Origin: Paraglaciecola sp. T6c
GTDB taxonomy: Bacteria > Pseudomonadota > Gammaproteobacteria > Enterobacterales > Alteromonadaceae
Direction: 5' to 3'
Assembly (NCBI RefSeq): GCF_000014225.1
Contig: NC_008228.1
Location: forward strand, 1,798,001-1,862,000
DNA: 64,000 nt
Shown here piece after piece: positions 1-7,007 of the stretch. The position numbers and the translations under genes were made by a program. Position 1 is the first letter of the stretch, and each line of letters opens with the position of its first letter. The notes under the pieces are model-generated. The model made no database searches and was not told the DNA's origin. It worked only from the letters and a program-made list of their open reading frames with translations.

Positions 1-66
1 CTTGAAGTGATTAAAAAAACCAAATCTAGAAGTTACGTATACGACATGCTCGATAATAAGCGTTAG
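1..66 (+). CDS. 3' end of an unidentified gene (partial)
   Basis: An open frame enters from the left edge and ends in TAG at 64-66. The 21 visible residues end in ...YDMLDNKR, too little to identify; a Fic-family C-terminal wing is possible but is only a guess. The stop codon overlaps the integron core site GTTAGCA (62-68). If the cassette at 63-1014 is removed, the frame reads AAG CGT TAA, so the same last residue and a stop are restored. The gene therefore probably predates the cassette and was hit within its last codon without losing function. Confidence 0.45.
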   Translation, partial: LEVIKKTKSRSYVYDMLDNKR

Positions 67-1014
67 CATCAAAAATCAGTGGTTCATTGAATGGATAAAA
101 AAGAATACATAATTCGCCAACTCGGAAGGACGAAAAACAAAAAATATGAAGCATATGTTGTAACGAGAATAATTCACTTATTGAATGATTTCAGCATTAA
201 GTTTATCACCCAACAATATGTAACGCGCCCCAAAGGTAGAGCGCTAACTGATTTATATTTCCCTCAGTTTGCTTTTCATATTGAAGTTGATGAAGGCCAG
301 CATTTCAACCAAGCTAATATCGAAGCAGATAAAATTCGTGAAGCAGACATTATCAACGCAACTGGTCACGAAATATTGCGGATTGATGTAACAAAGTCAT
401 TTGATGACATAAATACCCAAATAGATGCCGCCGTAAATAAAATAAAAAGTATGAGGCAAGAAATCTCATTTATTCCGTGGGACATAGATTCTGAATTTGA
501 TTCGGCAACATACATAAAGCGCGGTTACATTGACATCAAAGATAACGTGGCATTCAAAACAATAAAAGATGCATGTAACTGTTTTGGTCATAATTACACC
601 GGATATCAACGGGCTGGAGCAGCGCATCCCGACCACTATATCATGCTATGGTTTCCAAAATTATTTCCCAACGGAGAATGGGATAATCAAATTAGCTCTG
701 ACGAAGAAGTAATAACCGAGCGAAACGAAGATGACAAAAAAGCAAAACAACATGTATCAAGTCACGTCAACAACAAAGAAAAGCACAAGCATCAGCGGAT
801 AGTGTTTGCAAAGGTAAGAGGAAACCTCGGGGACGTATTGTATCGTTTCAGAGGGCAGTACCAATTAGATGTAAAAGATAGCAATGAAAAAACTGGCCTG
901 ATTTGGCGACGAATTAAAACCCGAGTGAAAACATATGAACAAAACTAATGCTAACAATCAGCTCAAGTGGGACTGGTTTTCCGCTGCGCTCCAAACCAGC
1001 ACCTTAGCTGGGCG
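63..1014 (+). mobile_element. Single integron gene cassette
   Basis: The 952-bp unit starts just inside the core site GTTAGCA (62-68) and ends at the G of GTTAAAA (1014-1020). It carries one gene and one attC site (949-1020), which is cassette architecture. The R'' box TGCTAAC (949-955) is the exact reverse complement of GTTAGCA at the 5' junction. That is expected because the circular cassette joins its 3' G to its own first bases. No integrase gene and no second attC are visible, so it is a lone cassette here, although an array to the left cannot be excluded. Confidence 0.82.
91..948 (+). CDS. PvuRts1I/AbaSI-like modification-dependent restriction endonuclease (cassette-borne)
   Basis: 285 residues. 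The N-terminal half has a PD-(D/E)XK-type core: an acidic residue in ALTDLYFPQF (about 51-60), then HIEVDEGQH (about 63-71), followed by RIDVTKS. This resembles the Vsr-like nuclease domain of PvuRts1I/AbaSI enzymes, which cut DNA containing hydroxymethyl- or glucosylated cytosine. The C-terminal half contains RIVFAKVRGNLGDVLYRFRG and a WRRIKTRVKTY tail, compatible with the SRA-like base-reading domain of that family. The length also fits. Function is inferred from motif pattern only. It is the only gene of an integron cassette, consistent with a portable anti-phage role against modified-base phages. The preferred base modification cannot be read from the sequence. Confidence 0.62.
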   Translation: MDKKEYIIRQLGRTKNKKYEAYVVTRIIHLLNDFSIKFITQQYVTRPKGRALTDLYFPQFAFHIEVDEGQHFNQANIEADKIREADIINATGHEILRIDVTKSFDDINTQIDAAVNKIKSMRQEISFIPWDIDSEFDSATYIKRGYIDIKDNVAFKTIKDACNCFGHNYTGYQRAGAAHPDHYIMLWFPKLFPNGEWDNQISSDEEVITERNEDDKKAKQHVSSHVNNKEKHKHQRIVFAKVRGNLGDVLYRFRGQYQLDVKDSNEKTGLIWRRIKTRVKTYEQN

Positions 1015-1020
1015 TTAAAA
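949..1020 (+). repeat. Integron attC recombination site (72 bp)
   Basis: The boxes in order are R'' TGCTAAC, spacer, L'' AGCTCAAG, central stem CTGGTTT, loop with CGCTGCGC, AAACCAG, L' CTTAGCT, spacer GGGC, R' GTTAAAA. L'' and L' pair except for one extra C, the extrahelical base typical of attC sites and used by IntI to choose the bottom strand. Central pairing CTGGTTT/AAACCAG is perfect. The site starts one base after the TAA of the nuclease gene, the usual tight packing of a cassette. Confidence 0.88.
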
Positions 1021-1243
1021 TCATCAAGCTCGAACGGCTGCTTTTCGCTCATTACTGCCGTTTGGTATTTCACATCTGTACGACCGCTTTACGTACGGAG
1101 GAGCCTATGGGCGAGGTCTGACGGGCATTAATAGTCAAATACCGGAAGTTCATAGGTACTTAATTTGGCTTAGGTTTTATTATTTTCTAAACGCGAAGGT
1201 TTCTATCCATCAACACTAAACCATCATTCACTCTCAGAACATT

Positions 1244-1792
1244 TTAACTCACAGCCGTTCTGCCGTTCTTGAAGCGCAGAAATAGAGGTTTAATGCACTT
1301 GTGTGACAACAACGAGATAGGGGCGAACATCAATACACCGACAAATGGGATAGCAGGACCAAACACAAAGGTTGAGCCGATAACATGCCCAAGAATGCAT
1401 TCCATTCTGTATAGCGGTACAAATAAAGCTGAAACTAAAACGCCCAGAGCCAAATACATTGTTACGCTTGGAAAGCCATTTACAAAGGCAATTGATTGAA
1501 CTGTGCTTACCAGCAGCATGCTAAAGAATCCCAGTAATACCGACGGAGGAAGTGTTTTTGCATCCGACCCAGTTGATATTCTTTTTTTAATTACTGCAGC
1601 GGATAGCCACACCAGAAGTGGCAAAATCAGTAGTCCCCACCAATTCGACAATCCGGGAAGATCAGCACGCATGAAAAGGTGATGGGTAATTACTCCGCCG
1701 TTAAAGTATTCCCATGTTAAGTGACACACTTCGAAAAGTATTACTGCCAGTAACAGGCCATTTCTTATTTTATTGAATTGCTTCTCTTCCAT
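1244..1792 (-). CDS. Unknown multi-pass membrane protein
   Basis: 182 residues with about five hydrophobic segments (roughly 10-27, 50-68, 83-105, 112-128 and 137-163), a short charged N-terminus and a basic C-terminal tail (FLRFKNGRTA). I do not recognise the family. A weak GGGT ribosome site precedes the ATG. It stands alone on the minus strand between the cassette and a small lipoprotein gene, with no operon partner, so context gives no function. The protein is expected in the inner membrane. Confidence 0.6.
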   Translation of the reverse strand: MEEKQFNKIRNGLLLAVILFEVCHLTWEYFNGGVITHHLFMRADLPGLSNWWGLLILPLLVWLSAAVIKKRISTGSDAKTLPPSVLLGFFSMLLVSTVQSIAFVNGFPSVTMYLALGVLVSALFVPLYRMECILGHVIGSTFVFGPAIPFVGVLMFAPISLLSHKCIKPLFLRFKNGRTAVS

Positions 1793-5800: not shown

Positions 5801-7007
5801 CACAAGTGTTAACCCAAGCTTTACACCAGACGTCGCAGGGGATTATGTATTTACCCTTGTGGTTGATGACGGTGAAGACAGTAGCATTGGCGACTCAGTT
5901 GTGGTGCGCGTGGCCCAGGCGAATGTAGCGCCCCAGGCTGATATTCAAGTGAGCGGCGACATGCTAACCGGTACACAAGTCGCTCTAGATGGCAGTGCCA
6001 GTGTTGACAATGACAACGGCCCTCAAGCCCTAACATACGAGTGGCAGGTGATAAGTGCGCCAGCGGGTAGCACTATTAATACGGCAAGTCTTGTTAGCCA
6101 AGGAACAGCCACCACTAGCTTTACAGCTGATGTAGCGGGTACCTATCGTGTACAACTCGCTGTTTTCGATGGTGAGTTAACCGATGTGGTTGAGGCCAGT
6201 ATTGTGATAAACGAGGTGGTGGTCAACCAAGGGCCAGTGGCCGATGCAGGTGCTGACCAGCAACAGGAACTTGGCGACAGCGTTGAGGTTAATGCCTCAG
6301 CAAGCTTTGACCCAGACCAAAGCCCCGCGCCACTGACGTTCGAATGGGTGTTTGTGTCAGTGCCCCAGGGTAGCTTGCTGGTTAGCGCGAGTATTGAAAG
6401 CACGCCTGCGGGGTTAGCGATGTTTGTGCCAGACGTCGCAGGTACTTATACGCTCATGGTCACCGTTAGCGATAGCGAGCTAACCGACTCGGACTCCGTC
6501 ATGGTGACTGTCAGTGAAAATCAAATACCGGTTGCTGATGCCGGGAGTGACCAAACCGTTGATGCAGGCGAGCGCGTAGCGCTCGATGGCTCACTAAGTT
6601 ATGACCCTGACTCAGGCCCTCAAGCGCTCAGCTATTTATGGGAGGTGGCTTCTCGCCCCGAAAATAGCGTAGCTACCGTTATCAATAACAATAATGTGCT
6701 GGCGTTTATCGAGCCTGATTTGGCTGGGTTGTATACATTGCGGCTAGTGGTGAGTGACGGGCAAGCAACGGACGAGGATGAGGTACTCATTGATGTGATC
6801 AACGTGGTGCAACCAAGAATGTGCGATGTCGATGGCAATGATTTTGTGGATAGCCTAGATATTCGTGCTATAGCACGACTTCGCAATGCAACCGCAAGTG
6901 AAGGCGATGTGGCAGATTGGGATCAAAACGGTGTGATTAACGTGCTAGACGCCAGAGGTTGTGCACTTGAGTGTGACCTATCACGTTGCGCCTTAAAACC
7001 CGAGTAA
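2877..7007 (+). CDS. Secreted PPC-repeat / PKD-repeat protein with C-terminal dockerin
   Basis: 1376 residues. ATG at 2877 has a good AAAGGA site. A long basic N-region leads to a hydrophobic signal segment (about 41-58, cleavage near VQA-AD). Residues about 61-825 are seven PPC-like beta-sandwich repeats of about 109 residues (DTWTF...GE...NIQ...LYAPDG...GTY.LLVQDGTSR). Residues about 830-1305 are five PKD-like domains (GS.S.DPD..P..LTY.W ... Y.F.L.VSDG). The last 65 residues hold two calcium-loop repeats (CDVDGNDFVDSLDI and DWDQNGVINVLDA) as in type I dockerins. No catalytic domain is seen, so it is probably a structural adhesin or scaffold exported to the cell surface. The next gene encodes a cohesin-like protein, its likely partner. 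Confidence 0.8.
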   Translation: MDTRNVTYNKRGPDAHIEHASDSLSNRASNSILPRSLQHYWLVLCGLLMLCMGASQVQAADLVNGGSVSGVISVAGEEDTWTFNATAGERINIQLVDLAAGDLFPQMTLYAPDGTRVTSASNYTVASIYNAEAPETGTYSLVVQDGTSRQDNTGAYALHFAKSIGANENGSLINGSSVSGDITLGDLDTWTFDAIEGERLNIQLVDVDEAGFFPLMILYAPDGSRVGSASNYTVANLYNVAATQTGTYILLVQDGTSRREQVGSYEVHFAKSVGANENGTLNNGGVVSSDIALGDLDTWTFEATAGERLNIQIADVNEGDFFPFMTIYGPDGTRVGSASNYTVANLYNVAATQTGTYILLVQDGTSRREQVGNYEVHFAKSIGANENGTLNNGGAVSSDITLGDLDTWTFEATTGERLNIQIADVDDAGFFPFMTLYAPDGTRVGSASNYTVANLYNVAATQTGTYILLVQDGTSRRDEVGSYEVHFAKSVGANENGPLINGGAVSSDITLGDLDTWTFEATAGENLNIQIADVDNTGFFPFMTLYAPDGTRVGSASNYTVANLYNVSATQTGTFTLLVQDGTSRRDQVGNYEVHFAKSVGANENGPLINGGVVSSDITLGDLDTWTFEAVAGERLHIQLSDILRNVYFPLMTLYAPDGSRVSNASNYSVANLRNILATQTGTYILLVQDGTGRRDQTSDYEIHFAKSLGANEHGKLSGAGSYFETVTQGDIDTFTFDGVVGDEVTLVMRELEVTNLSPFITLHNPDGSYFTNASHYSEAGVYNLSLPMNGTYTIVLSDGTSGRDQIGDYVLEYNLPTAAPDPQKPIASASSAPTLFKDQVIQLNGSGSFDPDEAPEALTYSWTLVSAPDSSAVAQADIAEPNSANASVQPDVYGEYRFELTVSDGLLSDSAIVTVTVINRAPSAHAGADQNVELNVPTQLDGSASNDADGDLLTYAWTVVSVPSGSAVTALQNSTSVNPSFTPDVAGDYVFTLVVDDGEDSSIGDSVVVRVAQANVAPQADIQVSGDMLTGTQVALDGSASVDNDNGPQALTYEWQVISAPAGSTINTASLVSQGTATTSFTADVAGTYRVQLAVFDGELTDVVEASIVINEVVVNQGPVADAGADQQQELGDSVEVNASASFDPDQSPAPLTFEWVFVSVPQGSLLVSASIESTPAGLAMFVPDVAGTYTLMVTVSDSELTDSDSVMVTVSENQIPVADAGSDQTVDAGERVALDGSLSYDPDSGPQALSYLWEVASRPENSVATVINNNNVLAFIEPDLAGLYTLRLVVSDGQATDEDEVLIDVINVVQPRMCDVDGNDFVDSLDIRAIARLRNATASEGDVADWDQNGVINVLDARGCALECDLSRCALKPE
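3384..4691 (+). repeat. Near-identical 327-bp tandem repeats inside the surface-protein gene
   Basis: The word GGGTCTGCTAGTAATTA recurs at 3555, 3882, 4209 and 4536, exactly 327 bp apart. Long flanking stretches are identical or differ at only a few bases. The first, sixth and seventh protein repeats are more diverged. This points to recent in-frame duplication or gene conversion, so repeat number may vary between strains. The outer limits given are approximate. Confidence 0.85.

Follow-up and report, generated by a model that had tools for sequence, protein, structure and literature searches.

The gene at positions 91-948 of Paraglaciecola sp. T6c lies at the left edge of the window, i.e., the 64,000-nucleotide stretch of DNA analysed here, which corresponds to bases 1798001-1862000 of the complete 5.19-Mb chromosome. 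The locus raises the question of whether this gene is an integron cassette and, if so, what it encodes and whether it can still move. We consider it very likely that it is a single-gene cassette occupying the attI of a chromosomal integron with a truncated intI, that it is probably immobile, and that it encodes an endonuclease of the PvuRts1I/AbaSI type (type IV). The features on which the analysis rests are listed below, where L006 designates the locus to the left of the window, and L007 and L008 designate loci with other arrays.

L006:14537-14695, strand opposite to the leader: truncated intI, left of the window, matching residues 4-56 of TIGR02249
L006:14705-15061, forward strand: continuation of the attI leader to the left of the window, delimited by comparing the left flank with congener integrons
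1-62, forward strand: right-hand end of the attI leader, which stops at the crossover G62^T63; 18 of 22 congeners have the same leader, with alignments that end at the crossover
63-1014, forward strand: integron cassette as excised, 952 bp, one gene, with the R-box pair GTTAGCA (62-68) and TGCTAAC (949-955)
91-948, forward strand: modification-dependent endonuclease of the PvuRts1I/AbaSI family, 285 aa, assigned from Pfam, AbaSI (4.3e-75), an AlphaFold model and PADLOC
949-1020, forward strand: attC, arm pairing 8/8, covariance model R1 at 27.6 bits (E 0.0018)
1014-1100, forward strand: right end of the array, 87 bp, with 98% identity at L007:9570-9656, and 39 bp with 87% identity at L008

Cassette boundaries and the attC site

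The 5' junction of the cassette carries the R box GTTAGCA at 62-68, with the crossover between G62 and T63. Its exact complement, the R'' box TGCTAAC (949-955), directly follows the stop codon of the open reading frame, and the complementarity between junction and R'' extends to 8 nt (GTTAGCAT / ATGCTAAC). R'' is followed by L'' (959-967), a central stem, L' (1003-1010) and R' (GTTAAAA, 1014-1020). L'' (CAGCTcAAG, with C964 extrahelical) pairs with L' (CTTAGCTG) at 8/8 positions, and neither strand of the 64 kb has another 8/8 pattern site. The G+C content of the cassette is 0.386, versus 0.453 for the window. The preliminary description had placed the cassette at 63-1020: the start is retained, while the excised form ends at 1014.

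Taken individually, these features are weak. The simple attC pattern has a background of 35 occurrences, counting true sites, in 1.97 Mb of strand, or approximately two expected per window, which is too high for a pattern match to serve as proof. A matching R-box pair arises by chance at one other of 80 open reading frames. The stability of the bottom-strand fold was likewise discarded as proof, given its z of -1.33 is not significant and 21 of 200 shuffled sequences fold equally well. With the R-box pair and the arm pairing each having about one to two chance occurrences per window, and a fold z this modest, it might be argued that the likeness to an attC is accidental and that the gene is merely an islet beside the remains of an old integron. 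The site was therefore evaluated with a model built from other sites of the genus.

The training arrays were identified in the same genus by following successive R boxes outward from attI. At the 6-pair level, some of the chains obtained in this way are false; the model sites are well-paired only, save one or two 6-pair sites with clear R-box chains. Covariance model R1 was built from an alignment (A2) of 25 attC sites of the genus, with the window's own site excluded. The arm pairs covary in this alignment, with 35 cells in which both sides have changed (mean after shuffling, 10.1), and a covariation score of 0.337 against at most 0.074 when the alignment is slid. On 95 kb, R1 recognises the attC at 949-1020 with the score listed above, the next match in the window having 15.4 bits; genome-wide, the same match has an E-value of 0.099 and is one of 34 matches at E <= 1, all these E-values being rough because calibration was short. 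A search of the window and its left flank with such a model, as had been suggested earlier, thus yields 949-1020 as the only credible match in the 64 kb. Given a model trained without this attC finds it to be the only good site in the window, and the gene begins exactly at an attI crossover common to intact integrons, an accidental likeness is extremely improbable. The R-box pair, the fully paired arms and the covariance match bear out the original claim of a complete attC with one extrahelical base and an R'' complementary to the 5' junction, and the integron cassette remains the reading adopted here.

The decayed integron and the mobility of its cassette

Over 535 bp, the left flank shares 90% identity with the intI 5' end and attI of an intact integron of a congener (G252), and a second congener (G118) gives nearly the same result. 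T6c shares with these two chromosomal integrons the intI 5' end, the leader and the attI crossover. In both of them, however, intI is full-length, points away from the cassettes and starts approximately 365 bp from the crossover, whereas the T6c stub, with the same spacing of approximately 365 bp, has only about 55 codons and one stop. This flank is the decisive evidence for the integron cassette, since the attI is shared with intact integrons and the cassette starts at its crossover. On the right side, the 87-bp end of the array also closes another array of the same genome (L007), and positions 1014-1100 are probably the right half of the ancestral attI. Given the left flank matches an intact intI-attI region and the right end is shared, the locus corresponds to an integron with one remaining cassette at attI; as no intact intI adjoins this attI, the integron is classed as decayed and not as complete. 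The cassette is accordingly not "lone", as first described, but occupies the attI of a decayed integron as its only cassette.

A LexA-type box, CTGTATTTATATACAG, is kept in the leader at L006:14744; such boxes are common upstream of intI (PMC3108266). Two ATTACATAGACACCC repeats (L006:14494-14530) directly adjoin the point at which intI is truncated, and L023 has five copies of this repeat, close to a gene resembling REP-type transposases (327 aa). To the right of the array, outside the cassette, lies an open reading frame of 182 aa (1244-1792, reverse strand) with no Pfam match.

No intact integron integrase was found in the T6c genome. The best other intI, at G000:C1:2231947-2232967, needs two reading frames, with its C-terminal part in the second, and a third copy, at G000:C1:1664675-1665445, is in four pieces. 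Hence, unless the assembly is wrong at the broken copies, the cassette looks fixed and is most likely an immobile resident at present. With both other intI copies appearing frame-broken, the whole set of T6c cassette clusters, represented by the 34 attC-model matches at E <= 1, may be frozen.

In the 18 genomes that have it, the attI leader is present in one to several copies each, and a comparison of leader and intI positions in seven genomes shows intI or its remains beside few leaders only. Many leaders, mostly without an adjoining intI, nevertheless precede cassettes whose start coincides with the crossover, and cassette loading in trans may have been normal in this genus. An integron integrase acting in trans, encoded elsewhere in the genome, on a plasmid or by a copy that was wrongly assembled at this locus, could still excise and move the T6c cassette. 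This would be in line with an attC and an attI crossover that are intact at the locus, and with the fact that most leaders of the genus lack an adjoining intI yet carry cassettes. Against it stands the condition of the two other T6c copies, one in two reading frames and one in four pieces, and we consider continued mobility quite improbable; an immobile cassette is the preferred interpretation.

Further observations concern attI and attC sites elsewhere in the genus. Several of the leader copies without intI share a left boundary at approximately 427 bp from the crossover, beyond which the DNA is unrelated. An empty attI, in which the flanks are joined, was not seen in the 22 congeneric genomes, though the leader is common in them. 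When the locus was compared with congeners, only the leader aligned, except for one gene in L174, and for this reason no syntenic site can be named. The last attC of the L008 array (6592-6668, reverse strand) has C in place of G at the R' crossover (AAGCTTAAAA) and is perhaps a dead site. An element starting with CAAGAGACTATGGCGTC and carrying a 318-aa transposase, which we take to be IS110/IS1111-like, is inserted in attC sites just after R'', from 6254 on in L007, from 11690 and 14680 on in L023, and from 13313 on in L024.

Family, fold and predicted function of the nuclease

The 285-aa protein consists of a Vsr-like nuclease domain (residues 1-125, approximately) and an SRA-like domain (approximately 136-285), matching PF21598 (PvuRts1I-like_N, 1.1e-37) and PF18491 (SRA, 6e-43), respectively. 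AbaSI is the closest solved structure by sequence, followed by PvuRts1I (4e-43). The PADLOC model it matches is named mREase_II (2.5e-124), and no NCBIfam family was found for it.

An AlphaFold model, for which 25 sequences from the window and the homologue loci served as input, has a mean pLDDT of 90.3. It aligns to AbaSI with a Z of 28.3 (2.8 A over 270 residues) and to PvuRts1I with a Z of 24.6. Residues 17-122 of the model align to Vsr with a Z of 8.2, as expected of a Vsr-like PD-(D/E)XK domain, and residues 135-285 align to the SRA-like domains of AspBHI, LpnPI, MspJI and SUVH5; the Foldseek and VIA rows ranking under AbaSI and PvuRts1I served for domain assignment only. The comparison by structure prediction proposed in the preliminary description thus yields a model that holds both a Vsr-like nuclease and an SRA-like domain.

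The residues point the same way. The catalytic set K17, E20, D54, E65, E68 and H71 corresponds to K17, E20, D57, E68, E71 and H74 of PvuRts1I, and the pocket set W187, P189, W197, N199 and E210 corresponds to its W205, P207, W215, N217 and E228. The PvuRts1I active-site and pocket residues were taken from two structure papers, in which several of them were mutated (PMC4027163, PMC4157451). Among 25 relatives, all six catalytic residues, as well as W197, N199 and E210, are invariant, while W187 and P189 are nearly so. With both Pfam domains, the AbaSI match and these residues in place, the assignment to the PvuRts1I/AbaSI type made from the sequence at first sight is well founded.

In this family, the SRA domain probably flips 5-hydroxymethylcytosine (5hmC) or glucosyl-5hmC, and cleavage occurs 11-13 nt away, leaving 2-nt 3' overhangs (PMC4027163). 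By analogy, the T6c protein is predicted to be an active endonuclease with 5hmC or glucosyl-5hmC as its substrate. It would act as a dimer, as its homologues do; its SRA-like domain would flip out and read the modified base, and its Vsr-like PD-(D/E)XK domains would cut both strands approximately 11-13 nt from it. Phages using hydroxymethylcytosine would be restricted and unmodified host DNA spared, and protection against such phages is the predicted defence role. Expression of 91-948 is presumed and uncertain, since a search of the coding strand across the leader and cassette gave no sigma-70-like promoter.

The main targets might also be other than 5hmC phages, with the enzyme reading another cytosine modification or acting on other incoming DNA. 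PvuRts1I retains some activity towards 5mC and C (PMC4157451), and the T6c protein differs from it at two positions of the pocket edge: F192 is found at the position of Tyr210, and N194 at that of Ala212, where AbaSI also has Asn. In PvuRts1I, changing Tyr210 to Phe raised selectivity for 5hmC, and changing Ala212 to Asn lowered selectivity (PMC4157451), so these two residues would represent a small testable point on selectivity and not a conclusion. However, the residues needed for 5hmC recognition are all present, and AbaSI, the closest solved relative, is 5hmC-specific. Other main targets are therefore unlikely, and hydroxymethylcytosine phages remain the more probable ones.

Relatives, cassette-like arrays and known systems

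None of the 14 congeners listed has the nuclease gene, which fits a gene gained by acquisition. Its nearest homologues belong to a Colwellia MAG (73% identity), a Cycloclasticus sponge symbiont (with a broken frame) and Zhongshania (62%), and no attC of the T6c type was found at these loci. The Cycloclasticus homologue (L043:4001-4905) is frameshifted and lies between core genes, without an attC. Over 573 kb from 73 loci, no R1-type attC was found near nuclease homologues at E <= 1. A matched 8-nt GTT-box pair surrounds the gene at 6 of 104 homologue loci, window included. Besides the window, two of these hold up, namely Aquimarina longa (L042) and an uncultured Bacteroidetes bin (L044), both amid further cassette-like units; the pair in L042 is GTTAGCTTG / CAAGCTAAC, followed by a site of approximately 190 nt. 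The nuclease of L062 may be another cassette, and L041 has a 3' half-site only. In a tree of the family, the cassette-borne genes do not cluster together, and a minimum of two changes is required by well-supported branches, which suggests the family became a cassette more than once.

A homologue with 53% identity is present in large viral contigs (L125-L128, up to 373 kb), near a phage-type tRNA nucleotidyltransferase gene; these contigs are possibly from a jumbo phage carrying the nuclease.

Similar arrays were found in other Bacteroidetes sequences. In another flavobacterium, Bacteroidetes MedPE-SWsnd-G2 (L204, G298:C1:268000-284000), nine consecutive cassette-like units are delimited by exact 9-nt GTT.../...AAC complements, and the opposite strand has a single such pair. 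Two Aquimarina longa contigs (L205 and L208) present 11 and 12 exact 9-nt units on one strand, compared with one on the opposite strand. One strand of these arrays thus carries 9 to 12 units, and most other strands carry zero or one. The attC-like sites of L204, L205, L208, L042 and L044 are unusually long, at roughly 118-190 nt. The array of L204 is headed by a 386-aa tyrosine recombinase, which passes the cut-off of XerA-like NF040815 (223.4, cut-off 220) and falls below that of the TIGR02249 integron integrase (204.5, cut-off 265). In the IntegronFinder 2 survey, Bacteroidetes proper had earlier yielded only In0 elements and one complete integron, in Salinibacter (PMC9024848).

These results raise the possibility, on which we are evenly divided, that PvuRts1I-type nucleases were packaged as cassettes more than once and in two systems: an IntI integron, and Bacteroidetes arrays with attC-like sites of approximately 118-190 nt and a XerA-like tyrosine recombinase that is not a classical IntI. 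If this is true, cassette packaging is a recurrent route of spread for the enzyme family, and the Bacteroidetes arrays are a little-described integron-like system. The T6c locus itself provides a clear and testable case of a putative 5hmC-directed nuclease as an integron cassette, and its relatives point to repeated recruitment of the family by cassette systems, including Bacteroidetes arrays that are rarely reported by the standard survey. For arrays without an integrase, IntegronFinder 2 applies a default threshold of two attC sites (PMC9024848). Once intI is lost, a platform with a single attC does not reach this value, hence the defence cassettes of decayed platforms are probably under-counted.

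In comparison with AbaSI of Acinetobacter baumannii (PDB 4par, 4pba, 4pbb), the T6c nuclease has the same two-domain architecture, 45-50% identity, the same catalytic and pocket residues and the high structural similarity given above. However, AbaSI is longer, due to an insert after the active-site histidine, and no attC of the T6c type was found at the Acinetobacter loci examined. PvuRts1I, from Proteus vulgaris plasmid Rts1 (PDB 4oq2, 4oky), is the prototype of the family and has the same domains and active site. It differs in having only 32% identity, in Tyr210 and Ala212, which are Phe and Asn in T6c, and in being carried on a conjugative plasmid and not on a cassette.

Integron cassettes for phage defence, type IV restriction included, have been published by Darracq 2025, Kieffer 2025 and Getz 2025, according to a review (PMC12409362). 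The T6c cassette resembles them in that an attC cassette carries one small gene, here with a predicted defence function. The published cassettes were tested with phages, whereas the defence role of the T6c cassette is predicted; its protein has the normal length of its family (285 aa), and its integron has lost the integrase. The cassette had been described as a neat delivery route for defence; as the published cassettes precede it, this is no novelty, and the route here looks closed, with the integrase gene gone. The general principle of integron-borne phage defence is already known; the T6c cassette shows the PvuRts1I/AbaSI family to be one that travels as integron cassettes.
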